Part shown: piece by piece, positions 4,752-64,000 of the stretch
Layout of the letters: the number at the start of each line of letters is the position of its first letter
How positions within the stretch are numbered: position 1 is the first letter of the stretch
NCBI GenBank assembly: GCA_001600635.1
Contig: BCKL01000013.1
Coordinates: 1-64,000, forward strand
Source of the DNA: Leucosporidium creatinivorum
Lineage: Eukaryota; Basidiomycota; Microbotryomycetes; Leucosporidiales; Leucosporidiaceae
Length of the DNA stretch: 64,000 nt
Direction of reading: 5' to 3'
Position numbers and translations under genes: made by a program
Notes under the pieces: generated by a model
What the model saw: only the letters and a program-made list of their open reading frames with translations
The model's database searches: none
Told to the model about the DNA's origin: nothing

Positions 4752-5420
4752 ATCCACCCACCATCCGACTACACATCAAAACCGGCGTTCAGAGCTGGAG
4801 CGGAGGGAGAGGAAAGGAGGGCAGGCGACCAAGAGCTGGACTCGTCTTGTACAGGGAAGGAGGGAGCTTATACAGCAGAGCACGAGGGGACACCCGACGA
4901 TACAGCAATTGCTATTCCACCAATCAGCCAGCAACCACCGCCGATTCCGTCGCCCGAACCGACGCGCCGAAGCAATCCTTCGTTGGCTTCCAGCTCGCAC
5001 CGGACTGGCTTGACGGCGCTGAAGGGGTTACAGGGAGCTCTCGTTATATCACACTTCGATTCGCCGGCTCCTGCAGCCGCTGGCGAAGGACTGAGGCAGC
5101 TCGGCGATGTTCTGCGAAGCGACGCACTTGCCCCTTGCGAAGCCAGCGAAACGGGGTGTAGAAATACAGCGAGATCGCGAAGAGCTCTGGGAGCAGTTTC
5201 GGCGCTCATTGAAGCCCTACGGCGAGTGGCTCCGCGTTCTTGAGCTCTTTGCCCTTGTCCTTCGCCGACTTGAGCGCTTCACGGCTCTCACTCCCTCCGC
5301 TCACCTCGTCTCGCTCGTCACCTTCGTTCTCTCGCTCCGAATCGACTGCAGAGCGCTCAGTAGCACTTCTACACACCTGAAGACCCCTCTACCGCTCCCG
5401 ACTAGCCTACACTTGCCATC
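4752..5420. other. Intergenic region before PSMA3
   Basis: About 670 bp. Overlapping open frames on both strands give no recognisable protein. The last 100 bp are pyrimidine-rich, as in many leaders of this window. Presumed terminator of TIM10 and promoter of the proteasome gene. Confidence 0.4.
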
Positions 5421-23771: not shown

Positions 23772-26700
23772 ATGAACGCTTTACATCTCGCTGTAGGAGC
23801 TCTACTACTCAGCGCCAACTCGGCAGCATGTGCACCGTCTCTCGCCCTTCGCGACGGCTTCGATCCAGCAGGCCTCGCCGCCAACTCGACTTCCACCGCA
23901 ACAGCTCTGAACAGTACCGCTACGGCTACCATGTCTCCCAAGAACTCGACCTCGTCTACCGAATGCTCCCTCGACCAGACCATCGGGCCCGGAAACCTTA
24001 CCCTCTGCGGCAACTCGACACTCTTCAACGTCTGGCGACCCAAGGCTCGTATCCTGGGCCCGAACAGTTTCATGAACGACCCAATGGGAGCGTGGCAAAG
24101 GGAAGACGGCTCCCTGCACATCGGCTGGCAGTGTCATCCTCAGGTGAGCTCGGCGCCTTCACCGAGAGACCGCCGCTGACCGCTTCCTTCCTCTAGCATA
24201 TCCAATGGGGAAACATCAGCATGTGCGCTGCTACTTCGACTGATCTGGTCACCTACAGCGACCTCAACAAGACTATTGTTGGTCACCCACAGCTTCGTCG
24301 CGCCTGCTTTCGCTGACCTTGGCCTCTCCTCATTCGCCTTGCTCCCTCATGTCCAACTTGCCTTCTTTCGCATTGTCACTCACTGACAGTGGCCATCCGA
24401 GATCTACGACATTCGTGGCGTGTTCGACGGCACGATTATCAAGGACGGCTACGAGGGAAAGCCCACGATCCTCTACACCTCGACCTACCCCGGCGGTCCT
24501 CTTGGCGCGACAGTCAAGGAGGTAGAGGGCGTTGAGACGCAAAGTATTGGTGGGTGTTGCCATTCTCTTGATCTCGCCCCGCCCCGCCGAGCTAACCCTC
24601 CGCCACCGTGTAGCCTACACCGAAAATGAGGGAAAATCTTGGATCAAGCTACCGTACTCGGCTGGCGGCAACCCCGTCATCTACGAGTGGCCCATGCAGA
24701 ACCTCAGTACGCTTCTCTCGTTTGATCTCAAGCTCAGTTCGCTGACCCTTCTTGCTCGGCAGCTGGCTTCCGCGATCCCTACGTCTTCAGTTCGCCTCGC
24801 CTGGCCGCTCTCCTCGCCAATTCCAACACGTCCACCAGCTCTGCGACCCCCAACTCGACCACCAACTCCACGAGCACCAACTCAAGCACCAACAGCACCG
24901 AGTCGAAGCTCTTTGCCACCATCTCGGGCGGCGTGCACGATGAAGGAGCGAAGCTCTTCCTCTACCGCCAGAACGAGACCGGCAACGTGCTCAACTGGGA
25001 CTACATCTCGCCGCTTCTGGAGATCAAAGTCAACTCGAGCTGGAGCGAATGGTCAGGAAGTGAGTCTCGTCGTCTCGCCTCTCCCGGCTCGGACTGCTCT
25101 TCGCCGAAGTCGCTGACCTGGTCACTCTCTCTCAACAGACGGCGGAAACAACTTGTGAGTCGTGATTGGCTGCTTGAAAGCCTACTACGTAGCGCGCAAG
25201 GCTGACCTACTCCCCTCCTCGCAGCGAGACGGCTTCGGTCAATCGGCTCAACGCTTCGGGGGATGCCTTCGACGCTGGAGAAGATGCAACTGCGGTCGAC
25301 TTCCTCTCATTCGGTACCGAGAATGGTGAGCTCGCGTTACACCTGGTGTCTACCTCTAGCCGAACGAAATGACTGACCGCCTTGCTCTTCTTTCGCAGGT
25401 CGCGACGAGATCCACCAGAAGCATTGGGCGCTGTGGGCTGCCGTCAACTACAATTCGACTGGCAACGGTACTGTTACCTCTGACATCCTCTACGCGTAAG
25501 CTGTGCGACCCTCACGCGAAGACGCCGCATCGCCGAACTCTCTCGCTAATGTCCCTCACGCACTACAGCGGCGTGACCGACTGGGGCCAGAGCTACGCCT
25601 TCGTCAACTTCCCCTACAACGGCAGTCGCCAGATCGGCATCGGATGGACCTACGAAGGCGACACGACGGGCGCCCTCGCCAAGCAGCAAGGCTACCAGGG
25701 AGCCCTCACCGCGATGCGAGACGTCTTCGTCAAGTACACGCCCAACGTCGACCCCACCGACCCGGACCTCGGCGTCAAGGCTTCGTGGGGCGTCAAGAAC
25801 GAGTCTGATGGTAGCGTCACCGTCTCCACTCTCGGCCAGCGCATCATTCCCGAGCTGCTCTCGGCTTGGAAGACGGCTGCCAACGTCTCGACGCACAACG
25901 CTACGAGCCTATCGAGCGACGGTTACCAGCCCTTCAAGCAACAGCCTACTGATCGCTACTATGTGCTGTGAGTCCTCTCGAGCTGCCACCTTGACCGGAG
26001 AGTGCGAGCTACTCGGCTGACGTCCGGGCTTTCTCCTCCTCAGCAAGGGCCAGTTCAACTTTGAGCGCAACTCGACCGGATCAGTCGGCTTCAGGGTACT
26101 CGCTTCTGATGCCGAGTACACCGACATCTTGTAAGCTCAAGTCGTCACTTCGTCCTCTCGGCGCTTCGCTGACCCTCGTTCGCTTGCAGCTATGACCCTG
26201 TCGCTCAGAACCTGACCGTCAAGCGCGAGATGAGCAGTCTCGTCAAGTCTTGTAAGTATCTTGCATCTGGTATGCCGAGCTAGAGATGCCTCGAGGTGGA
26301 TAGACGCTCTCGAACGAACGCCGAGCTGACCTCGGCTCCTCTTGCTCGCAGACGACAACACTACCGAGCTCGGCAAGCTCAAGCTTTGGCGGACGCTCGA
26401 CTCGAACATGACGACTCTCAACCTCACGGTCATCGTCGACAACTCGGTCCTCGAGGTGCACGCCAACGACGAGTTCGCTTTGACTACTCGGGTCTACCCC
26501 TGGCTCTCGAACTCGACCGGCGCTGGGCTGCTCGCTTCCAACGTCTCGGGAGTGGCTGTCAAGGTGTCCGACCTCGAGCTGTGGGATGGCTTGGGTGAGT
26601 TATCATCACCAGCAGCCAGCTCTGGACTCGACTGATTCAGCTGCCCTTCCCTCAGTCAACGCCTGGCCCGAGCGGCCCGCCAACTCCAGTACTGGCCTTG

Positions 26701-41327: not shown

Positions 41328-44300
41328 CTAATCCCTCTGGTAGTTGACCAGCTTCTTAGCCTCGGCCCTAATCTTCTCATCGGGATGCTGACGGTACAGC
41401 CCGGCCTCCCACCAACAAGTGCCCTCGGGCTCGGCCCTCTCTGGCTCATCGACGTTACCTCGCCACTTGCCGTCGATCCTCCTATCACCCGTCTCGAGCA
41501 TGGCCTCGAGCTTGGGCTCGCGAATGAGGAGCGAGCGAAGGAAGACGAGGGTGCGGAGTTGGGAAGCCGGGGGCCATTGAAGGGAGGAGGTCATGAGACG
41601 CTTGGAGAAGGCGAGGGTGCGGATGGGGGAGGGAAGAGTGCGAGGAGTGAGGAAGATGGCGGCGAGGGCGCGAAAGAGGAGGTCGGCCTCGGTTTGAGCG
41701 AGCTTGGCGAGGAGCTTGTTGCTCGAGGTGATGGCGTTGCGGCCGAGGTAGGGGGTTTCCTCGAAGGTGGGGCTCAAGGCCAGCGGGAGGATGAGGGCGT
41801 AGAGCGCCGAGATGAACTCGCCGAGGTCGATGTTGAGAGCCTCGCCTGCAAGAAAGAGATAGGTCAGCGACCGAGCGGACGACCGAGGCGACGAGACACA
41901 GCGACTCACCTTGACCTTGGAGCAGCTCGAAGGCAGTGACAATGCACAGCAGCTTCTCGCGCGTATCATTCCTTGTGACCAATGCTCCCTCCTCGAGGTC
42001 GTTGTCGATCGACTCGGCCTCGACGGCCTCACCGCGCTTGATGATGCCCTTGAGGACCTCGAGCAAATCGCGGAAGAAGTCGATGTTGACGAGGTGGGCG
42101 AAGCGAGCCAATCCCTCGAGGGCGGCGGGAAGGAGGGGGGAGCGATAGTCGAGCTTGACAATGCGGAAGTAGAGGGCGAACAAGAGCTTGAGCGTCTCGG
42201 TCATGTTGCGCTCCCTCTCCTCCTGGTTGACCTCGCCCTCGGCGTCGCGCATCTCCTTGTCGATAGCAGCGCGCTCCTTGCGCACCTCACGCGCCTTCTT
42301 GGAGCCCGTCTTGGACATGGCCTCCTTGGCCTTTCCTCCCTTGCGACCCTTGCGATCCTTCTCCTGGTTCCAGCGAACGATGCCCTTGCGTCCCTCCTTC
42401 TCGCGGAAGATAGCGGCGGTAGAGGCGCGCAGACGACCGCCTCCGAGCTCGTCCTTGAGGCGAAGGTTGAGGAGGGCGGAGAGGACTTCGGGGCGAATGG
42501 CGAAGGAGCGGGCGCGGACGAGACGGGAGATGAGGCGGACGAGGTGGAGCGAGTTGGAGGCGGTGGTGGTGGTGTCGTTGATGAAGAGGTGGTTGACCGT
42601 CTCGAGGCAGGCTTGGTGGCCCTGTAGAAGCGAAGTAGGTCAGCTCGGACGTCGAGGGCGAGACGAAGCTGGGGAACGCACATCATCCCAGCCCTTGCGA
42701 CCGAGACGCTTTACGACAACATCCATGATGTTGACGGCAAAGTTGAAGTCGGGCTTCTCCTTGACGAGCGTGCACAGGCAGTGGAGAGCGGCGGGGCCGA
42801 GAACGGTGTCCTCTGCGAACGGGCGAGAGGGTCAGCTCAAGCCCAAGAGACAGCGAAGGTCGTAACGCACCATTGACCTCGGTCTCGCACATCTCGAGGA
42901 AGCGCTTGTAGACACCAACGAGTCCGTCCTCCCACTCGCGCTGACGAGCGACGAGCTGACTGACCTTGACCTCCTTCTCGGTCTCGGTGAGAGGACGGAT
43001 GCGGTAGCCACTGCGGGAGGGGCGAAGAGTCAGCACGACTATCGAAAGGTATGCGAAGCACCTAGAACTCACGGAACGACATCAACAAAGACGGCGAGGA
43101 GCGAGACCATGGCCATGATGCGAATCTCGCGGTCGACGAGGATGGGGCGCTCTCCTGCGCTCTTGGCCGACGACGACGAGGAGAACTTGGGAGAGGTGAG
43201 CGACAACAGACGCTTGAGGAGGTTGAGCTGTCGAGTCGAAAAAGGTCAGCACCCGAGCCCGTTTGGCGAAAGCAAGACGACCACTCACTCCTCCTTCTCC
43301 CTCTCCCGTCCCACTAGCCTCCCTTCCGAGATCCGCAATCTCCTCCCTCGCCCTCCCAACCCTCTCCTTCTTATCCTTGATCTCCAACAACTGCCTCACG
43401 GCGGGCCTTCCGAACCTCTGACCGAGCGGATCACTCCTGTACTCGGGCTGCTTCCTCTCCTCAGGCTCGGGGCTGGGAGAGTACTCGGGGGTGGCGGAAC
43501 GGAAGAGGGGAGTGTCGCCCCGGATGACTCGGCCGGAGGCGTCGATGGTAGGGAGCTTCGTAGGGCGGGCTTTGGGGACCTTGGGAGCGGCGGGGCGGGC
43601 GGCGTAGGCGGCTTCCAGGTCGTCGTTGTCGAGTGTGGGCTTCGACTTCTTGCGAGGAACAATCTCCTCGTCCTCCGAAGCCGAGTCGTCCTCGTCCTCG
43701 TCTTCCTCCTCCTCCTCTGATTCCTCGGCGCTGTCGTCCTCGGATCCCTCAACACCGTTCTCCCCCTCGACGCCCGCACCCGAGACCACCGACCCTTCCT
43801 CATCCTCCCACTCCAGCTCCTCATTACTATCGAACGCCGAGTTGTCGTCCATGTCCTCATCGTCCTCATCGAAATCGCTCGGCATATCGCTCATGTCGCT
43901 CATATCACTCATATCACTCATGCTCTCCATCTCACTCATGACACTGAGGTCATCATCCGATCCACTTCCAAAAGCGAAATCGTCCTCCTCCAAATCGTCC
44001 AGCAGCTCGCCTTGAGGGTGAGCCTTGCTCGGTCCAGCAGCTTGCTCCTCCTCCGAATCGACGGGATCCTCGTCCGAATCGGCTCCAGCGGCGGCGCCAC
44101 TCTTCTTGGCCTTCTTGGCTGCTGCTTCCTTCTTCTTGATGGCCTTGAGCTCGGATTTGAGCGGGTTGGCGGGGGCGAGAGGGATGCCCGAGAGGAGGGA
44201 TTTGGAGCGAGGGGCGGGGGCGGGCTTGTCCTTGCGGTGAGCTTTGAGGAGGGCGGGGCGGGAGCTGTAGTGGTGTAGAATAAGGAGAATGTCAGCCCGG

Positions 44301-51948: not shown

Positions 51949-52570
51949 CTACTGAGCGGTAGACCGAGCTCAGCTTCGACGCCAATCGCAGAGTAGGACA
52001 TGCGAGAGAACCGAGACCGAAGTGAGCGCCGAAGCCAGCTGTAGGGTGACCGCGAGACTTCCAATGAGCGGGAGTAGCTTCTGTAGCTCAGTGTGTGTCT
52101 TTCGAATCACTGTGCCGATTTTCGGAGCAGCAGACGCAGGTCGACTGGTCGAGTCGAAACGAGCTGCTCAGCCGCTCGAGGTGGTCAAATCGCAAGTCCG
52201 CCCACCAGGGTTGTCTTGCTCGTCTTCAGTCACTTCCAGATCATCGCGTAAGGTGACATTCTACTTACACCAAACACCTCCTACACCCTACCCGACTACA
52301 CTACAACAACTCCCACCTCGTCAGCACCCCTCAATCGACGGCTGGGAGCAGAGTTTGCGCAGAGGGCGCTAGGCTGGGCGCTGTACGGGAGCAATGGGAG
52401 CACGAGCAGGGGAGCAGGGGAGATTGAGGTGCAGAGGGGGAAATGCTGCTGGATTTTCTGCAGGGGAACCTCTGCTCGAATTGCGATTCAATCCTCTGCC
52501 GGCGAGCGAGCAGGGCGCTGACCTTCTCTCCTCTCTCCTTCCCCTTTCAACCTTCCCCTACAACAGAGCT
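51949..52570. other. Intergenic region running into the left inverted arm
   Basis: About 620 bp upstream of RPL33. From 52173 onward it is repeated, inverted, at the right end of the window. TCAACCTTCCCCTACAACAG just before the RPL33 ATG looks like a leader. No gene is recognised. Confidence 0.4.
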
Positions 52571-53560
52571 ATGCCTTCCACCCGTCAGTAATTGCACCCG
52601 ATTATCCTGCTGTAGGACGTCTTGCTGACCCTCTGCTCACTCCGCTCATCCGCCCTCACGCCAATCCTACGATCCTCTCCTGCACCCCTCACGACTCCCC
52701 TACACATCTCCTACGCCTCTCAATCGACTCTCTGCACCAATCTGCACTCAATACCACACCGCTCCGCATCCTACACCCTCCTAATCGCCGTCATCTCGCC
52801 CCTCCCATCCCTCACGTCCGCCGAACCCCTCTCAACTCTCGACTCTCTGCACCTCGCACGCTCTTACGCATCAAACAGGCCTTTATGCCAAGGGACGCGT
52901 GACCGGAAACCAGCGTGGAAAGCGCAACGTCCGCGTCAACACCTCGCTTGTCCAGGTCGAGGGTGTCGCCACCAAGGAGGAGGCTCAGTTCTACCTCGGA
53001 AAGGTGAGGCCTCGCTCTACAAATGATGCGTGGAGAATTGAGGGATGCACTGGAGTGGATGCGAGTCGAGGGGAATGAGTTGCGGGGTTAGGAGATCGCT
53101 CGGCGTTCAGCAAGCGGATGGTGAGGGGTAGCAGAGCAGCTCTCGCCAGTAACACCGAGGGCTACGAGCTGGCGCTCGAGCCTGCTTGTGGAGTTGAAGC
53201 TGTGCTTGGAGGGCTATTGGACGTCGAGGGACGATGATCAGTCCACGCTTGGCTCGGTCGACCAGGTCGCTGACGTCGCTCTCTCCCCTCACTTTACAGC
53301 GCGTCGCCTACGTGTACACCGCCCAGCGCCCCATCAACGGCTCCAAGATCCGCATCATCTGGGGAAAGGTCACCCGCTCGCACGGCAACGGAGGAATGGT
53401 TCGCGCTCAGTTCAGGCAGAACCTCCCCGCGAAGTCCTTCGGTCACTCGGTTCGCGTCATGCTTTACCCTTCCAACAGTGAGTTCGCTTTCTCTCTCCTG
53501 GATATCGAGTTCTTACGAATCGCCGAACCGAGCTGACTTCCCCTTTCGCTCCCAGTCTAA
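52571..53560 (+). CDS. RPL33: 60S ribosomal protein eL33 (L35Ae), left-arm copy
   Basis: Four exons (52571-52583, 52879-53003, 53300-53477, 53556-53560) give 106 residues. After splicing it reads [40 protein letters not shown] and [20 protein letters not shown]. It continues [20 protein letters not shown], then [20 protein letters not shown] and LYPSNI. This is a full eL33, a protein of the large ribosomal subunit near the E site. The first exon is 13 nt and the last holds only part of the final codon and stop. The first two introns are about 295 nt each, far longer than most in this window, as is common for ribosomal protein genes. An identical copy lies in the right arm. Confidence 0.93.
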
Positions 53561-53852
53561 GCATGTCTAGTTCCCGACCGTCCTTCCGCATTACTCGACG
53601 AAGCCCCTCCGTTTCGTGGCTTTTTGTACAAGATTGCAATCTGGCGCGAGATTGAGGATGATACCACGTAGTTCGTTGGCGGCGAGCTGCGCTCGGCCGA
53701 GAGATAGGCGAGAGGCGAGAACGGGTCGACAACGGAGCGTACAGCCTGCAGAGCGCTTGCCGTGGGTGTGGAAGGGGGAAACTGAATTGCTGCTCGTCAT
53801 GGAGCGCTCGCTTCGCTTGGAGATGGGAACATGCAACGAACTCGGCGCAGTT

Positions 53853-56339
53853 TCAAGGAGGCGGCGATCCTACTCTACGCTGCCCATCTGCACCCTCATT
53901 CTCTTCCTCCTCACTCACCCTCGGCTCCACCTCCTCACTCGCCACGCTCTGATATTGCGCACTCGGTCTCTCCCCGCCTTGTCCCTCCTCATCCCAGCGT
54001 TCTCGCTCGAACAACGCCCGAGTCGCTTCGAGCGAGAGTCCCTTCGTCTCTGCGGGGGCGGAAGAGGCGTCAGTGTTGTTGGCTCTGCAGTAGCGGAGTT
54101 AGGCATACCTGGCAGGTTGCGATAGGTGAAGACCCAAGCGGCGACGGTGACGGCGGCGAAGATCAAGAAGGCGCCGCCGACGCTGAGGGCTGCGAACGAC
54201 CATGTCAGCTTTGACCTGAACTGGCGGACCTGATAACGCACCTTGAGCGAGATGCAGATATGTAGAGGCGACGATGAGATTGGCGGTCCACTGCGAGGAG
54301 GGAAGACGGGTCAGCAGGAGCGAGACGGCTCGCTCATCGGCGTGGCTCACATTGATCGCTGCAGAAGGAGGAGAGTTAGCTCTGCAGCGGGCAGAGGACG
54401 AGCGGGTCTCACCAGTCGCCAGTGATGTTCCTGTAGCGCGAAGCTCGTGGGTGAAGATCTGCAAAGCGATGAGCGTCAGCTCGCTTCTCGGCGTCTGATC
54501 GGTCAGTTCACCTCGCTCTGAACGACCCACGGAACGTTTCCGAGTCCGAGAGCGCTAAGGGAGAACGAAGGTCAATGATGAGCGTTATCAGAAAGGAGAT
54601 ATACCTCACTAAGATGAGCAAAAGACGGTCATGCCGAGCAGCGCGAGGTAAGCCCAGGCCGAAGGTCCCGGAGGAGTAGGATCACCCGTCTCGCCGCGAT
54701 CAAGCGCAGGGATGAAGAAGAATGAGAAGCTGAGCAGTAGCATGCCGACGATCATGCCGACGAGGGTGCGAAGAAGGAGAGGGCGTCGCCCGAGATGGTC
54801 GATCAGGCGTAGGGCGATGATAGTGCAGATGCTGCGGGAGGGCGAAAGGTCAGCGATGTTGAAGTCGAAGAGACACGCAAGCTCACAAGTTGGAGATAGC
54901 CACCACGAGAGCGAAAGCGGCTGGTCGACCGAAGTGAGCTGCTTGCAAGATCTTGCCCGAGCTGTTTCTCGGCGCAGAGGTCAGAGGTCAGCGGAGAGCT
55001 TGGACAACGCTCGAGTACTCACAAGTACATGAGCAGGTTAAACCCCGTTGCCTGCTGAAAGAACTGCAGCCCGCAGGCCAGGATGACCGCTCGGCGATTC
55101 GCTCGGTCGTTCCAGAGCTTAGCGACCAGCCCCTCCTTCGCCTTCCCCAAGCTCAATCCCTCGCCCAATCCCAAGACCCCTTCTCTCTCCTCGCTCTGCA
55201 CCTCCATCTCTATCCGGTCGATGCGCCGTTGGATCGCCGCCGAGTCGGAGAGGGGATAGACGGCCTTCAGAGTTGCTCGGGCGGGGGCGATTCGACCCTT
55301 CTGAATGAGCCATCGAGGGCTCTCGGGGAGGGAGAAGCTCAAGCATAGCTGGAGGATAGCGGGAATGGCGCCACTGCCGAACATCCATCTCCAGCCGGAC
55401 GGGACTGAGTAGAACACGGCGTCGACGAGGTACGAGAGGACTTGGCCGCCGGTGATGAGGACGACGAGGCTGGCGACAATGCGGCCACGGAACTTGGCGG
55501 GAGAGACCTCGGCCAGGAAGATGGGAAGGACGGAGGAAGCCAGACCGACCCCCAGGCCAACAAGAACGCGGCCTGCGAACGCCGAAGTGTCAATACTCGG
55601 CGCGGGTGGGTTGTGGAGCAGCATCCACATACCGAAGATGACCTCTTTGTACACCTGTGCTGCTGCTTGCTCCAGAGCTGTACGAGAGAAGCGAGGTCAG
55701 CTCATGAGGCCCCACACTCGTCGACAACGAGAGCTCACCTCCCAGCGTGAAGAGGACAGCCGCCATGAGGATGACGGGTTTCCGACCGAAGCGGTCTGCA
55801 CACCTTCCAGCCAGCAGTGACCCACCCAGAGCGCCGAAGAGCGCGCTCGAGACGAGCATCTCCTCCTGGAACGTCGTGAGCGGCGAGCCTCCCAGGTCGG
55901 CGTGGATGACGAGAAGAGCACCAGATACGACGCCTGTATCGTATCCACTGTGCTGGAGGTCGTCAGCGGCTGTACCCCTCTTGTATGAGGAGCGAGCAGC
56001 GCTTACAACAAGAGCCCTGTTGAGCGGGGTGTCAGCGGAGGCAACGAGGGCTATCAAGCTAGCATACGCACCTCCCAGACCAGCTACTACTGCTATCCGC
56101 ATCAATGCCGGAGTAACGACCGTGCTCTCCTCGAGATCAGCGTCCTCGGCCTCGAAGCGTTCGCGCTGCTCGTCGGGCGACCACGAAAGGGCGGATGCGA
56201 CGGACTCGGCGCTGAGCCTGGGAGATACAGCTGGTGAGGTGAGCATGCTGCGCGGGTCGAGGTGAAGAGAAGACGAAGATGAGGAGGAGGGAGAGAGCTC
56301 GGCGCTATCGAGCAGCCACCTGGCTTTGGCGGCTCTCAT
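53853..56339 (-). CDS. MFS sugar/polyol transporter, left-arm copy
   Basis: Identical in all visible frames to the right-arm copy (59834-62320), described there in detail. Thirteen exons and 600 residues; the two tiny exons lie at 56007-56016 (10 nt) and 54351-54358 (8 nt). It converges with RPL33, 292 bp between stops. Its start faces the core gene, so its upstream region (56340-57160) is shared with the divergent mannose-6-phosphate isomerase gene. Confidence 0.9.
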
Positions 56340-56553
56340 CGCTGTTGCCCACTTCTTCAATCAAAGGGGTTGTAGTACTTTCTGGAAGAAGCCGTTTCAC
56401 CTGCCTTCTACCCTCGGCTGATCCTCGGTCCAGGCCATCGCCGAAGCTCCAGCGAAACCTCCGAGCTTGTCGAGGCTGAAGCCACGACGGCCTCCACGTG
56501 TTAGGCCGGTTTTGGTACTGGGATATCACAGTAATAGCTTCAGTGCCCTATAG

Positions 56554-56646
56554 CCCGGGTTCGCGAAGGTCGACGAGAAGATTGAACTTGAGGAGGAGGC
56601 TTTGATCGCCAAGATGGATGCTAAGAAGGAGGCGCAGAAGCACTGA
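56554..56646 (+). pseudogene. Orphan terminal-exon-like coding tail, left arm
   Basis: A TAG acceptor-like site is followed by an open frame that reads PGFAKVDEKIELEEEALIAK then MDAKKEAQKH and a TGA. The charged, helical composition looks like the C-terminal end of a real protein, but no plausible upstream exons are seen. It sits between two divergent genes, 215 bp upstream of the transporter ATG, and is repeated in the right arm (59527-59619). It may be a remnant carried in by the rearrangement. I cannot name the parent gene. A chance open frame is possible. Confidence 0.4.
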
Positions 56647-57160
56647 AGGGTCGTAGTGCAGAACATATACGAATGAATGTACAAAGATCGCAGTAACCCA
56701 GCCGCCCCGCGCCCATCTGGAAGCGTAAGAGCAGCAAACGATTCGCCTTTGACATCGCCGAGCCTCTGGTTTCCTCGGCCAGCGTACCCTACAAGATCGT
56801 CAGCAAGCTCTTCGATTGCTCTAGTCGCACCAATATAGCTCCTCCTACCCTTGAGTGAGCAATTTGTACCAGTTTTTGACCTAGTGGACAGGGCCTCGGA
56901 GGTGACTGGACCCAGGAGCGCCGAGCNCCGAGCGCCGAAATGTTGGGCCTTTGTGCGAGCGAGGAGGCCTCGGAATCAACAGCGATTGTGTTTTGATCTA
57001 TTGGTGCTCGCTGGTCGCCTCAGAATCAGGCCTGCAAGAAAGTAGGCAGATGGCTGGACTAGGCTGGACTTGGCTGCGAAAGGCGCGTCGAGCTCCTGAC
57101 AAGGCTTGCCCTCTTCCACATCTCTCCTCGTCAGCGATCTTCACCAACAACACGTCGAAG
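56647..57160. promoter_or_regulatory. Upstream region of the isomerase gene, mostly inside the left arm
   Basis: 514 bp. All but the last 110 bp (57051-57160) belong to the repeat arm. A tandem of a 7-bp unit (GAGCGCC, about three copies) lies at about 56917-56937 and contains the only N of the window. The promoter of the isomerase gene therefore lies largely in repeated DNA. No known operator was recognised. Confidence 0.5.
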
Positions 57161-58866
57161 ATGTCTCCTAGTGTCTTTGAGATTGTGCGCCAATGCTCTG
57201 CACCCTCTGCTCTGCTCTCTAGACCCGCCAACTCATCGATTTCTCGCGTTTCCTACAGGTTTGCGGCGCCCAGAGCTACGACTGGGGCAAGCTCGGCAAG
57301 GTGAGCATCTACAGACAGCTAGAAATGCGTGGAATGCGCTGGCACAGTTACAGAAGCTGACCTTGCCCTCGACACGTGCAGGACGGCTCCAAGGTCTCGC
57401 ACTTCGCCAACGGCTCGCCAGGCTTCACCTACGATGCGGAGAAGCCCTACGCCGAGGTGTGTAGCTCGCTAACAGATGTCTGAAGCACTGCTGAACCGTG
57501 TCGTTACGCAACAGCTCTGGATGGGCACACATCCTTCCTGCCCCTCGACCCTCCTCGCGACCAAGGAGAATCTCAAGGAGTACCTCAAGGCTCACCCCGA
57601 GCTGCTCGGCGACAAGGTGGTGAAGCACTTTGGCGACGACCTGCCCTTCCTCTTCAAGGTGAGCCTGCGCGCGTGCTCGGCGCTCACGGGACGCGTTGCT
57701 GATGCACGGCTCGTCGCAGGTTCTTGCCATCCGCAAGGCGCTCAGCATCCAGGCTCATCCCGACAAGAAGCTCGCTCAGAGTCTCTTCGCTGAGCACCCC
57801 GAGATCTACAAGGGTGAGCTCGCCTGCTAAATTTCGGCGCCAATCTCACGCTGACCTTCCCTTTCGCAGATCCCAACCACAAGGTTCGCTTTGCTCGCTC
57901 AGAGATTGCAAGACATGCAGCTGACTCTTGAATTTATGCAGCCCGAGATGGCCGTCGCCCTCACCCCCTTCTCCGGCTTCTGTGGCTTCCGTCCCCCTTC
58001 GCAGATCGCCTCCTTCATCAAGACCGTCCCCGAGTTCGCTGCCGTCCTCGGCGCCGCTGCTTCTTCCTTCGCCTCCAAGTTCACCGAGGGCTCATCTGCC
58101 ACCGAGGAGGACAAGAAGGCCGGCCTCAAGGAGATGTTCACGGCTCTCATGACTGCCTACGATGGCCCCGTCGCCGAGCAAGTCGAGAGGCTCGTTGCTC
58201 GCCTGGCCAAGGAGTCTGGCGAGGAGGCCAAAGAGGAGCGCGAGCTCGTTGCCACCCTCAACAAGGATTTCCCCGGAGACGTCGGAATTTTCTGCACCTA
58301 CGTTCTCAACATCGTCCACCTCCAGCCCGGAGAGGCCGTCTTCCTCGAGGCCAACGAGCCCCACGCCTACCTTGATGGAGGTGAGCGGCGCTCTATGAGC
58401 TATCCCGATTCCCGTCGCTGACTCTCTCGCGCTCTCAGACATCATGGAGTGCATGGCTACCTCCGACAATGTCGTTCGCGCCGGCCTCACCCCCAAGCTT
58501 CGCGACGTCCCCACGCTCACCAGCATGCTCACCTACACCTCCTCCCCTCCATCCGAGCAAATTCTCCCTCCCGTCGGCTTCCGTGCCACCAAGCACACCA
58601 CCCTCTACGACCCACCCATCGAGGAGTTTGCCGTTCTCCTTACCGGCCTCGCCGAGGGCGAGGAGGAGAAGTTCGAGGGTATCGACGGCCCCAGTATCCT
58701 CATCTTCACCGAGATTGGAGGTGAGGTCACTCTCTCGAGTGAAGGGGAGACTGTCAGCATCAAGAGGGAGGGACAGGTCTTCTTTGTTGGAGCTGGAGTC
58801 GAGGTCAGTCTCGCGGCCAAGGGAGGCAAGGCGACCGCCTACAGGGCTTTTGTCGAGGCGCCATGA
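57161..58866 (+). CDS. PMI40: Mannose-6-phosphate isomerase (type I, zinc-dependent)
   Basis: Eight exons (57161-57184, 57259-57300, 57382-57456, 57515-57658, 57720-57813, 57870-57883, 57942-58380, 58439-58866) give 419 residues. The sixth exon is 14 nt. The enzyme interconverts fructose-6-phosphate and mannose-6-phosphate in the cytosol and feeds GDP-mannose for glycosylation and wall mannan. Motifs: VCGAQSYDWGKLGKDGSKVS, ELWMGTHPSCPS (zinc site), KVLAIRKALSIQAHPDKKLA (second zinc ligands), [20 protein letters not shown] and VFLEANEPHAYLDGDIMECM, the type I signature, with NVVRAGLTPKLRD after it. It fills the unique core between the two inverted arms and appears intact. Confidence 0.95.
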
Positions 58867-59122
58867 GCTGATGCGGCGTAGAGGATAGACACTGGTAGAT
58901 ACACGTATAGCTTTTGGGACAATCAGCATCTCGCTTTGTAGCACAAACCGAGGCCGACGCCAGGCGAGCTTCGGCGACGGCGGGCGAAGGCTTCCACGTC
59001 CCAGGCGGTCCAGCGCTGGTTGAAGACGTAGGGCAGTCGAATGACTACCTCCTCGGAGCTGTTTGCGGTCTCGGTACGGACGCAGGGGCAGCAAGCGAGG
59101 AGGTCGTGGTTCGCGCCGCTCC
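58867..59122. other. Core sequence between the isomerase stop and the right arm
   Basis: 256 bp of unique DNA. It is open in one forward frame (AGEGFHVPGGPALVEDVGQS region), but I see no family. It must hold the isomerase terminator. Confidence 0.4.
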
Positions 59123-59526
59123 TCTGCCTACTTTCTTGCAGGCCTGATTCTGAGGCGACCAGCGAGCTCCAATAGATCAAAATACAATCGCTGTTGATTC
59201 CGAGGCCTCCTCGCTCGCACAAAGGCCCAACATTTCGGCGCTCGGTGCTCGGCGCTCCTGGGTCCAGTCACCTCCGAGGCCCTGTCCACTAGGTCAAAAA
59301 CTGGTACAAATTGCTCACTCAAGGGTAGGAGGAGCTATATTGGTGCGACTAGAGCAATCGAAGAGCTTGCTGACGATCTTGTAGGGTACGCTGGCCGAGG
59401 AAACCAGAGGCTCGGCGATGTCAAAGGCGAATCGTTTGCTGCTCTTACGCTTCCAGATGGGCGCGGGGCGGCTGGGTTACTGCGATCTTTGTACATTCAT
59501 TCGTATATGTTCTGCACTACGACCCT

Positions 59527-59619
59527 TCAGTGCTTCTGCGCCTCCTTCTTAGCATCCATCTTGGCGATCAAAGCCTCCTCCTCAAGTTCAATCTTCTCGT
59601 CGACCTTCGCGAACCCGGG
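59527..59619 (-). pseudogene. Orphan terminal-exon-like coding tail, right arm
   Basis: Inverted copy of 56554-56646 with the same sequence. The frame ends AKMDAKKEAQKH then stop. The parent gene is not recognised, and no upstream exons are visible in either arm. Confidence 0.4.
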
Positions 59620-59833
59620 CTATAGGGCACTGAAGCTATTACTGTGATATCCCAGTACCAAAACCGGCCTAACACGTGGAGGCCGTCGTGGCTTCAGCCT
59701 CGACAAGCTCGGAGGTTTCGCTGGAGCTTCGGCGATGGCCTGGACCGAGGATCAGCCGAGGGTAGAAGGCAGGTGAAACGGCTTCTTCCAGAAAGTACTA
59801 CAACCCCTTTGATTGAAGAAGTGGGCAACAGCG

Positions 59834-62320
59834 ATGAGAGCCGCCAAAGCCAGGTGGCTGCTCGATAGCGCCGAGCTCTCTCCCTCCTCCTCATCTTCGT
59901 CTTCTCTTCACCTCGACCCGCGCAGCATGCTCACCTCACCAGCTGTATCTCCCAGGCTCAGCGCCGAGTCCGTCGCATCCGCCCTTTCGTGGTCGCCCGA
60001 CGAGCAGCGCGAACGCTTCGAGGCCGAGGACGCTGATCTCGAGGAGAGCACGGTCGTTACTCCGGCATTGATGCGGATAGCAGTAGTAGCTGGTCTGGGA
60101 GGTGCGTATGCTAGCTTGATAGCCCTCGTTGCCTCCGCTGACACCCCGCTCAACAGGGCTCTTGTTGTAAGCGCTGCTCGCTCCTCATACAAGAGGGGTA
60201 CAGCCGCTGACGACCTCCAGCACAGTGGATACGATACAGGCGTCGTATCTGGTGCTCTTCTCGTCATCCACGCCGACCTGGGAGGCTCGCCGCTCACGAC
60301 GTTCCAGGAGGAGATGCTCGTCTCGAGCGCGCTCTTCGGCGCTCTGGGTGGGTCACTGCTGGCTGGAAGGTGTGCAGACCGCTTCGGTCGGAAACCCGTC
60401 ATCCTCATGGCGGCTGTCCTCTTCACGCTGGGAGGTGAGCTCTCGTTGTCGACGAGTGTGGGGCCTCATGAGCTGACCTCGCTTCTCTCGTACAGCTCTG
60501 GAGCAAGCAGCAGCACAGGTGTACAAAGAGGTCATCTTCGGTATGTGGATGCTGCTCCACAACCCACCCGCGCCGAGTATTGACACTTCGGCGTTCGCAG
60601 GCCGCGTTCTTGTTGGCCTGGGGGTCGGTCTGGCTTCCTCCGTCCTTCCCATCTTCCTGGCCGAGGTCTCTCCCGCCAAGTTCCGTGGCCGCATTGTCGC
60701 CAGCCTCGTCGTCCTCATCACCGGCGGCCAAGTCCTCTCGTACCTCGTCGACGCCGTGTTCTACTCAGTCCCGTCCGGCTGGAGATGGATGTTCGGCAGT
60801 GGCGCCATTCCCGCTATCCTCCAGCTATGCTTGAGCTTCTCCCTCCCCGAGAGCCCTCGATGGCTCATTCAGAAGGGTCGAATCGCCCCCGCCCGAGCAA
60901 CTCTGAAGGCCGTCTATCCCCTCTCCGACTCGGCGGCGATCCAACGGCGCATCGACCGGATAGAGATGGAGGTGCAGAGCGAGGAGAGAGAAGGGGTCTT
61001 GGGATTGGGCGAGGGATTGAGCTTGGGGAAGGCGAAGGAGGGGCTGGTCGCTAAGCTCTGGAACGACCGAGCGAATCGCCGAGCGGTCATCCTGGCCTGC
61101 GGGCTGCAGTTCTTTCAGCAGGCAACGGGGTTTAACCTGCTCATGTACTTGTGAGTACTCGAGCGTTGTCCAAGCTCTCCGCTGACCTCTGACCTCTGCG
61201 CCGAGAAACAGCTCGGGCAAGATCTTGCAAGCAGCTCACTTCGGTCGACCAGCCGCTTTCGCTCTCGTGGTGGCTATCTCCAACTTGTGAGCTTGCGTGT
61301 CTCTTCGACTTCAACATCGCTGACCTTTCGCCCTCCCGCAGCATCTGCACTATCATCGCCCTACGCCTGATCGACCATCTCGGGCGACGCCCTCTCCTTC
61401 TTCGCACCCTCGTCGGCATGATCGTCGGCATGCTACTGCTCAGCTTCTCATTCTTCTTCATCCCTGCGCTTGATCGCGGCGAGACGGGTGATCCTACTCC
61501 TCCGGGACCTTCGGCCTGGGCTTACCTCGCGCTGCTCGGCATGACCGTCTTTTGCTCATCTTAGTGAGGTATATCTCCTTTCTGATAACGCTCATCATTG
61601 ACCTTCGTTCTCCCTTAGCGCTCTCGGACTCGGAAACGTTCCGTGGGTCGTTCAGAGCGAGGTGAACTGACCGATCAGACGCCGAGAAGCGAGCTGACGC
61701 TCATCGCTTTGCAGATCTTCACCCACGAGCTTCGCGCTACAGGAACATCACTGGCGACTGGTGAGACCCGCTCGTCCTCTGCCCGCTGCAGAGCTAACTC
61801 TCCTCCTTCTGCAGCGATCAATGTGAGCCACGCCGATGAGCGAGCCGTCTCGCTCCTGCTGACCCGTCTTCCCTCCTCGCAGTGGACCGCCAATCTCATC
61901 GTCGCCTCTACATATCTGCATCTCGCTCAAGGTGCGTTATCAGGTCCGCCAGTTCAGGTCAAAGCTGACATGGTCGTTCGCAGCCCTCAGCGTCGGCGGC
62001 GCCTTCTTGATCTTCGCCGCCGTCACCGTCGCCGCTTGGGTCTTCACCTATCGCAACCTGCCAGGTATGCCTAACTCCGCTACTGCAGAGCCAACAACAC
62101 TGACGCCTCTTCCGCCCCCGCAGAGACGAAGGGACTCTCGCTCGAAGCGACTCGGGCGTTGTTCGAGCGAGAACGCTGGGATGAGGAGGGACAAGGCGGG
62201 GAGAGACCGAGTGCGCAATATCAGAGCGTGGCGAGTGAGGAGGTGGAGCCGAGGGTGAGTGAGGAGGAAGAGAATGAGGGTGCAGATGGGCAGCGTAGAG
62301 TAGGATCGCCGCCTCCTTGA
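59834..62320 (+). CDS. MFS sugar/polyol (myo-inositol-type) transporter, right-arm copy
   Basis: Thirteen exons sum to 1,803 nt and 600 residues: 59834-60101, 60157-60166, 60226-60434, 60496-60540, 60601-61150, 61212-61286, 61342-61563, 61619-61661, 61715-61760, 61815-61822, 61883-61931, 61984-62064, 62124-62320. Family motifs emerge only after splicing: GLGGLLFGYDTGVVSGALLV, GRCADRFGRKPVI, VGLGVGLASSVLPIFLAEVS, PAKFRGRIVA, PESPRWLI, QQATGFNLLMYFSGKI, VPWVVQSEIFTHELRATGTS, LATAINWTANLIVASTYL and PETKGLSLE. Twelve membrane helices are expected, and the N-terminus is Ser-rich and cytosolic. QSEIF...GTSLATAINW resembles proton/myo-inositol symporters, but substrate is not certain. The tail is Glu-rich. 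Confidence 0.92.
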
Positions 62321-62612
62321 AACTGCGCCGAGTTCGTTGCATGTTCCCATCTCCAAGCGAAGCGAGCGCTCCATGACGAGCAGCAATTCAGTTTCCCCCT
62401 TCCACACCCACGGCAAGCGCTCTGCAGGCTGTACGCTCCGTTGTCGACCCGTTCTCGCCTCTCGCCTATCTCTCGGCCGAGCGCAGCTCGCCGCCAACGA
62501 ACTACGTGGTATCATCCTCAATCTCGCGCCAGATTGCAATCTTGTACAAAAAGCCACGAAACGGAGGGGCTTCGTCGAGTAATGCGGAAGGACGGTCGGG
62601 AACTAGACATGC

Positions 62613-63602
62613 TTAGACTGGGAGCGAAAGGGGAAGTCAGCTCGGTTCGGCGATTCGTAAGAACTCGATATCCAGGAGAGAGAAAGCGAACTCACTGTTG
62701 GAAGGGTAAAGCATGACGCGAACCGAGTGACCGAAGGACTTCGCGGGGAGGTTCTGCCTGAACTGAGCGCGAACCATTCCTCCGTTGCCGTGCGAGCGGG
62801 TGACCTTTCCCCAGATGATGCGGATCTTGGAGCCGTTGATGGGGCGCTGGGCGGTGTACACGTAGGCGACGCGCTGTAAAGTGAGGGGAGAGAGCGACGT
62901 CAGCGACCTGGTCGACCGAGCCAAGCGTGGACTGATCATCGTCCCTCGACGTCCAATAGCCCTCCAAGCACAGCTTCAACTCCACAAGCAGGCTCGAGCG
63001 CCAGCTCGTAGCCCTCGGTGTTACTGGCGAGAGCTGCTCTGCTACCCCTCACCATCCGCTTGCTGAACGCCGAGCGATCTCCTAACCCCGCAACTCATTC
63101 CCCTCGACTCGCATCCACTCCAGTGCATCCCTCAATTCTCCACGCATCATTTGTAGAGCGAGGCCTCACCTTTCCGAGGTAGAACTGAGCCTCCTCCTTG
63201 GTGGCGACACCCTCGACCTGGACAAGCGAGGTGTTGACGCGGACGTTGCGCTTTCCACGCTGGTTTCCGGTCACGCGTCCCTTGGCATAAAGGCCTGTTT
63301 GATGCGTAAGAGCGTGCGAGGTGCAGAGAGTCGAGAGTTGAGAGGGGTTCGGCGGACGTGAGGGATGGGAGGGGCGAGATGACGGCGATTAGGAGGGTGT
63401 AGGATGCGGAGCGGTGTGGTATTGAGTGCAGATTGGTGCAGAGAGTCGATTGAGAGGCGTAGGAGATGTGTAGGGGAGTCGTGAGGGGTGCAGGAGAGGA
63501 TCGTAGGATTGGCGTGAGGGCGGATGAGCGGAGTGAGCAGAGGGTCAGCAAGACGTCCTACAGCAGGATAATCGGGTGCAATTACTGACGGGTGGAAGGC
63601 AT
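62613..63602 (-). CDS. RPL33: 60S ribosomal protein eL33 (L35Ae), right-arm copy
   Basis: Exact inverted copy of the left-arm gene, with the same four exons and 106 residues (exons 63602-63590, 63294-63170, 62873-62696, 62617-62613). Both copies have complete reading frames and splice sites, so both should be functional if the duplication is real. Its upstream region reaches the window edge with at least 398 bp identical to the other copy. Confidence 0.92.
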
Positions 63603-64000
63603 AGCTCTGTTGTAGGGGAAGGTTGAAAGGGGAAGGAGAGAGGAGAGAAGGTCAGCGCCCTGCTCGCTCGCCGGCAGAGGATTGAATCGCAATTCGAGCA
63701 GAGGTTCCCCTGCAGAAAATCCAGCAGCATTTCCCCCTCTGCACCTCAATCTCCCCTGCTCCCCTGCTCGTGCTCCCATTGCTCCCGTACAGCGCCCAGC
63801 CTAGCGCCCTCTGCGCAAACTCTGCTCCCAGCCGTCGATTGAGGGGTGCTGACGAGGTGGGAGTTGTTGTAGTGTAGTCGGGTAGGGTGTAGGAGGTGTT
63901 TGGTGTAAGTAGAATGTCACCTTACGCGATGATCTGGAAGTGACTGAAGACGAGCAAGACAACCCTGGTGGGCGGACTTGCGATTTGACCACCTCGAGCG

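Follow-up and report, generated by a model that had tools for sequence, protein, structure and literature searches.

An inverted repeat around a mannose-6-phosphate isomerase gene in a Leucosporidium creatinivorum assembly: likely genuine next to the gene, and perhaps lengthened by the assembler

Two near-identical arms of opposite orientation, together with a unique core carrying a gene for type I mannose-6-phosphate isomerase (PMI), make up the right-hand part of the 64,000-nt stretch of DNA analysed here (the window). The reading preferred, to which a probability of about 0.5 is attached, is that a real short inverted repeat flanks PMI and that the perfectly mirrored kilobases farther out may be one segment, with genes for ribosomal protein eL33 and a transporter, that the assembler wrote twice. 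The short inverted repeat flanking PMI is likely to be genuine, and an inverted repeat at this place is the part likely to be real under both leading readings, the other being a genuine long inverted duplication in the chromosome. Between an assembly mirror artefact and a real long repeat, the artefact is slightly more likely. The kind of structure looks like one already known, either an inverted duplication comparable to those of Saccharomyces cerevisiae and Candida albicans or a reported assembler artefact.

The geometry is unambiguous at the inner edges. The left arm, 52173 to 57050 (plus strand), and the right arm, 59123 to 64000 (minus strand, the reverse complement of the left), are 4,878 bp each and pair at a constant coordinate sum of 116173 in a base-by-base comparison; self-BLAST and a repeat finder agree on the same limits, and the proposal of the first-pass annotation, namely opposed arms of at least 4,878 bp with that coordinate sum around a 2,072-bp core, is thereby confirmed. 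The core, 57051 to 59122, is unique. As the inverted repeat is the sole self-match of at least 40 bp listed for the window (self-BLAST, E 1e-3), it is far beyond chance; the G+C content of the window is 59.7%. The inner arm edges are sharp, the 200 bp beyond them on each side being no more alike than shuffled sequence (the two adjoining core ends give a local score of 15, a score equalled or exceeded in 166 of 200 shuffles). The outer limits are of a different nature. The right arm has no end inside the window and extends to its last base, 64000, so that 52173 is simply the mirror partner of that base and not an observed boundary, and 4,878 bp is the length of the visible part of each arm, with both outer ends outside the window. 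Comparison of the inner edges (200 bp each) with the part of the window outside the arms yielded just stretches of 13–20 bp (E 0.32). The idea that the inner edge is a transposon end or belongs to a dispersed repeat is accordingly unsupported, the window containing no further copy of the edge, and no known RNA family or tRNA is reported in the window, the repeat edges included.

No gene other than PMI, at 57161 to 58866 on the plus strand, was recognised in the core. The expectation that the core would carry it whole is borne out by a splice model with eight exons, one of them of just 14 nt (57870–57883), and 419 codons for a complete protein; the introns, of 56–81 nt, run from GT to AG and the reading frame is clean. 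Three Pfam domains match (PMI_typeI_cat at E 2.8e-47), and the best solved relatives, PDB 1pmi and 5nw7, align over residues 3–418 with E of about 1e-105. The start codon, at 57161, lies 110 bp inside the core. PMI and the left-arm transporter gene (start codon at 56246) are divergent, with the intergenic region in common. At the other end of the core an open frame on the minus strand, 58932 to 59123, closed by a stop codon, abuts the right inner edge and by eye is protein-like, resembling a truncated gene tail. It has no Pfam match, a 42-aa piece of it gave three chance-level matches against PDB (E 0.6–1.4), and its codon score of −0.04 compares with a median of −0.016 for stop-free windows and with 0.038 for one plus-strand frame of the same interval (the score having been trained on exons, one of which is partly intronic). 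Given the lack of a family match and the neutral codon score, a broken gene at the right junction is not claimed.

Each arm carries a transporter of the major facilitator superfamily, Sugar_tr family. The splice model (13 exons, 569 aa, with the start codon chosen by us) matches the Pfam profile at positions 2–452 of 452 with E 1.3e-107; the left copy is at 53853 to 56246 on the minus strand, and mirror coordinates and arm identity place an identical right copy at 59927 to 62320 on the plus strand. Two micro-exons, of 10 nt (56007–56016) and 8 nt (54351–54358) on the minus strand and mirrored in the right arm, keep the frame in the model. As to substrate, an inositol transporter would be a tentative candidate. 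The second gene of each arm encodes eL33 (L35Ae), with approximate ends at 52879 to 53477 on the plus strand and, as an identical mirror copy, at 62696 to 63294 on the minus strand. Its two main exons (52879–53002 and 53300–53477 in the left copy) are approximate, an upstream exon was read by eye, and the match to Ribosomal_L35Ae (E 1.8e-22) covers profile positions 41–95 of 95; the list of PDB matches is headed by eL33/L33-A chains. L33-A and PDB 1pmi are fungal chains, and these leading matches, with the abundance of short introns, suggest fungal DNA; the G+C content is a tentative pointer to a basidiomycete yeast. Of the earlier proposal that each arm holds a whole transporter gene and a whole ribosomal protein gene, the first half is upheld by the full-length profile match, and the second is supported in part, by the partial profile match and the exon read by eye. 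For the transporter, eL33 and PMI stretches no related locus was found among viral contigs, nor for the Tcp11 protein of the window among prokaryote genomes, and in such long-shot collections for fungal DNA absence says little. No title on this locus emerged from literature listings for it or for red yeasts, which is not evidence that the locus is undescribed.

What distinguishes the arms from one another is confined to a very small zone. They are identical at 4,875 of 4,878 positions, so that the base-for-base pairing previously described holds save for two definite mismatches, at 56990/59183 (G-A) and 57005/59168 (T-A), and one N at 56927 in the left arm, opposite an A at 59246. That N, the sole one in the 64 kb, is the outermost arm difference, and all three differences are within 124 bp of the core, i.e. 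in 56927 to 57050 and its partner 59123 to 59246. With random placement, the chance that both definite mismatches would be within the inner 61 of the 4,877 comparable bases is 1.5e-4; that of the only N in the window lying so near an inner edge (124 bp or less) is about 0.004, for a zone picked post hoc. The outer 4,754 bp of the arms have no difference at all (95% upper bound 0.063%), and by the coding models used here about 2,742 of these identical positions are non-coding, from which it follows that purifying selection at the protein level fails to explain arm identity and is rejected as its source. There are thus two distinct inner-edge versions in the assembly, one attached to each end of the core. 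Missing sequencing adaptors give mirrors that lack a core; neither they nor whole-genome-amplification chimeras account for the two base differences at the edge.

On the preferred reading, the genuine short repeat around PMI would be at least 61 bp, probably 124 bp or somewhat more, with copies about 98% alike. An assembler unable to see past it, fed with reads that were presumably too short to span the repeat, could have output the eL33–transporter segment twice, and the outer, perfectly identical parts of the two arms would then be a single genomic locus. The crowding of both mismatches and the only N at the inner edge, with no difference in the remaining 4,754 bp, argues for this, as does a right arm that never ends within the window. 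There are published parallels: in three yeast assemblies made with DISCOVAR, a unique core is flanked by mirror arms that are identical or one nucleotide apart and reach the contig ends, and the authors of the report, with varying certainty (a conclusion or a suspicion), put this down to an assembler that had extended true repeats whose real length is shorter but unknown (PMC6692504). In favour, too, is the statement in a study of the Saccharomyces flip/flop region that short-read assemblies usually collapse both of its 4.2-kb arms into one contig and so hide their differences (PMC9731477). The present sequence has the corresponding make-up, two mismatches and an N per 4,878 bp of mirror arm around a unique core. 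However, the artefact is said in that report not to occur with SPAdes, and short-read assemblies break at such repeats more often than they mirror them (PMC9731477). A hallmark ascribed to false duplications is the presence of gaps between the copies (PMC9516828); here there is no run of gaps, only the single N at the outermost difference, and one N is no proof of short reads. Lengthening by the assembler also presupposes that PMI already lay between the copies of a short inverted repeat, and the window contains the inner edge nowhere else. Furthermore, we infer it from a pattern that would also be expected from a recent real duplication seeded at a short repeat, or from gene conversion that left a diverged inner edge.

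The latter possibilities are the substance of the main rival, to which we would give somewhat less than an even chance: a real segmental duplication in inverted orientation, 4.9 kb or more in length, in the fungal chromosome, with two identical copies of eL33 and transporter genes around PMI. A short inverted repeat near PMI could have given rise to it through fold-back or template switching, or it could be older and kept uniform by gene conversion; mismatches confined to the inner edge are compatible with either origin. If seeded, the outer arms would be identical because the duplication is young. Arm recombination would occasionally invert the 2-kb core, leaving the immediate neighbours of PMI unchanged. 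Intact splice models for PMI and the transporter favour a real duplication, and precedents are not lacking, with gene-bearing inverted repeats of similar size in yeasts (PMC9731477, PMC6591007) and an inverted gene repeat in Caenorhabditis elegans whose arms are 100% identical in coding and intergenic sequence alike (PMC1803023). As to seeding, in a yeast mutant with long single-stranded DNA, fold-back rearrangement was reported to be similarly high whether 12 bp or 30 kb separated the inverted Alus, and to be suppressed only by heterology above 25%; dicentric chromosomes can result when inverted repeats that are far from one another and partly diverged fold back in single-stranded DNA (PMC10164571). 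A short repeat with copies 2 kb from each other on either side of PMI could in the same way seed a true duplication. Against this, zero differences in 4,754 bp exceeds the uniformity of both yeast cases, the only N is located at the repeat edge, neither the outer ends nor a distinct flank on the right comes into view, and the mismatches persist here while those of the seeds were corrected in nearly all clones described in a fold-back study (PMC10622511).

Readings in which the core has two orientations are less probable. That the PMI segment truly flips, via a short or a long inverted repeat, and that both orientations coexist in the culture is an improbable though not negligible prospect. Should it do so, the locus would be a flip/flop around a sugar-metabolism gene and not around mating-type or sporulation genes, and the mirror in the assembly would be explained in the way of the published yeast artefacts at inferred flip/flop loci (PMC6692504). 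Distinct from this, and quite unlikely, is the proposition that two haplotypes or a mixed culture have opposite PMI core orientations and that the assembly entered on one and left on the other, generating a mirror that is in neither chromosome. It would explain the two inner-edge versions, one per core end, and some diploid Saccharomyces isolates are mentioned as heterozygous, with reads of both arrangements, in the flip/flop study (PMC9731477), but between two haplotypes one would expect differences over the full length of the arm, and there are 4,754 bp with none. The suggestion in the first-pass annotation of a switching locus, in the form of a regulated switch where PMI is turned on or off, or receives another promoter, when the core inverts, we consider extremely doubtful. 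The position of the PMI start codon so close to the edge, beside the divergent region that it has in common with the transporter, is the attraction of that idea. However, the core has no other recognised gene, and with arms that differ at just three positions close to the core and otherwise match over at least 4.75 kb, inverted PMI would face almost the same upstream DNA; a promoter swap is not expected from this and the idea of switching is unsupported. The more general statement of that annotation, that long near-perfect inverted repeats elsewhere can invert their core and be kept alike by gene conversion, has documented examples in yeasts (PMC9731477, PMC6591007). Recombination between the arms would do likewise with the 2-kb core here, if the repeat is real.

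In the assembly as given, near-identical multi-kilobase arms of opposite orientation, non-coding DNA included, enclose a unique core, as in the homogenised flip/flop type. Its exemplar, on S. cerevisiae chromosome XIV, has inverted arms of 4.2 kb with 97.6% identity, 24 kb apart, for which homogenisation by gene conversion has been proposed (PMC9731477). The likeness extends to arms of about 4 kb with two protein genes each and identity through intergenic DNA; the difference is that the core is 24 kb there and 2 kb here, with one recognised gene, and that the divergence of the 97.6% identical arms compares with two mismatches and an N. Moreover, the existence and both orientations of the Saccharomyces region are shown in the study cited by long-read assemblies and across species, whereas the present repeat is known from one assembly sequence (PMC9731477). 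Similarly, long inverted repeats in C. albicans are several kilobases long and contain ORFs, one being of about 3.2 kb, 99.5% identical, with copies about 11.3 kb apart and four ORFs; read depth linked it to a copy-number breakpoint, and PCR verified inversions at two further repeats, in contrast to the reliance on sequence here (PMC6591007). The artefacts of Cyberlindnera saturnus, Starmera quercuum and Kregervanrija fluxuum resemble the present case in having a unique core and near-identical mirror arms that reach the end of the visible sequence, but their cores, of 12–61 kb, have mating-type genes and their arms, of 15–195 kb, run to contig ends, as against a PMI core and a visible arm of 4.9 kb (PMC6692504). 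The mating-type flip/flop (FF1) has mating-type genes in its core; here only PMI is recognised, and there was no mating-type family among the 40 window stretches run against Pfam (part of the ORFs).

Caenorhabditis provides inverted gene pairs, said to be actively maintained, with arms that are alike in intergenic sequence too (95.7% and 100% in two C. elegans examples); maintenance there was deduced from cross-species comparison, in contrast to the single sequence available here, and in one example the repeat has decayed in C. briggsae and has arms 83.4% alike in C. remanei (PMC1803023). The fold-back and origin-dependent inverted amplification events of S. cerevisiae are similar in that the inverted duplication is centred on a pre-existing short inverted repeat (PMC10622511, PMC4689423). 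Their seeds are of a few bp and close together, e.g. 11-bp repeats 6 bp apart or, in a density count, 7-bp repeats with a spacing below 70 bp, unlike the candidate seed here, which would be over 60 bp with 2 kb between its copies (PMC10622511, PMC4689423). Origin-dependent inverted amplification is an interstitial inverted triplication with a replication origin, and just two copies of the segment, with no outer junction, are in view here.

The consequences differ with the reading. If both arms are real, fungi would have a further example of a large, almost uniform inverted repeat with genes in its arms, which could serve studies of gene conversion and the question of whether an extra sugar-family transporter and ribosomal-protein gene are retained for dosage; judging by the two copies in the assembly, duplication of the transporter and eL33 genes could raise dosage. 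If instead the arms are an assembly product, the case is a warning that entire gene duplicates may be generated in a draft assembly and resemble adaptive gene gain. The surroundings, 1 to 51945, have the appearance of an ordinary gene neighbourhood, with Pfam matches (for part of the ORFs) to a proteasome subunit, an RRM protein, the arginase family, an OPT transporter, a class 3 lipase, ketol-acid reductoisomerase, MoeA, a TauD-type dioxygenase, acyl-CoA dehydrogenase, Svf1 and Tcp11, as well as a weak match to GH32 that is below the cut-off of that family. Short tandem arrays are also present, of 27-nt units at 24823–24893 and of 9/27-nt units at 43883–43939.
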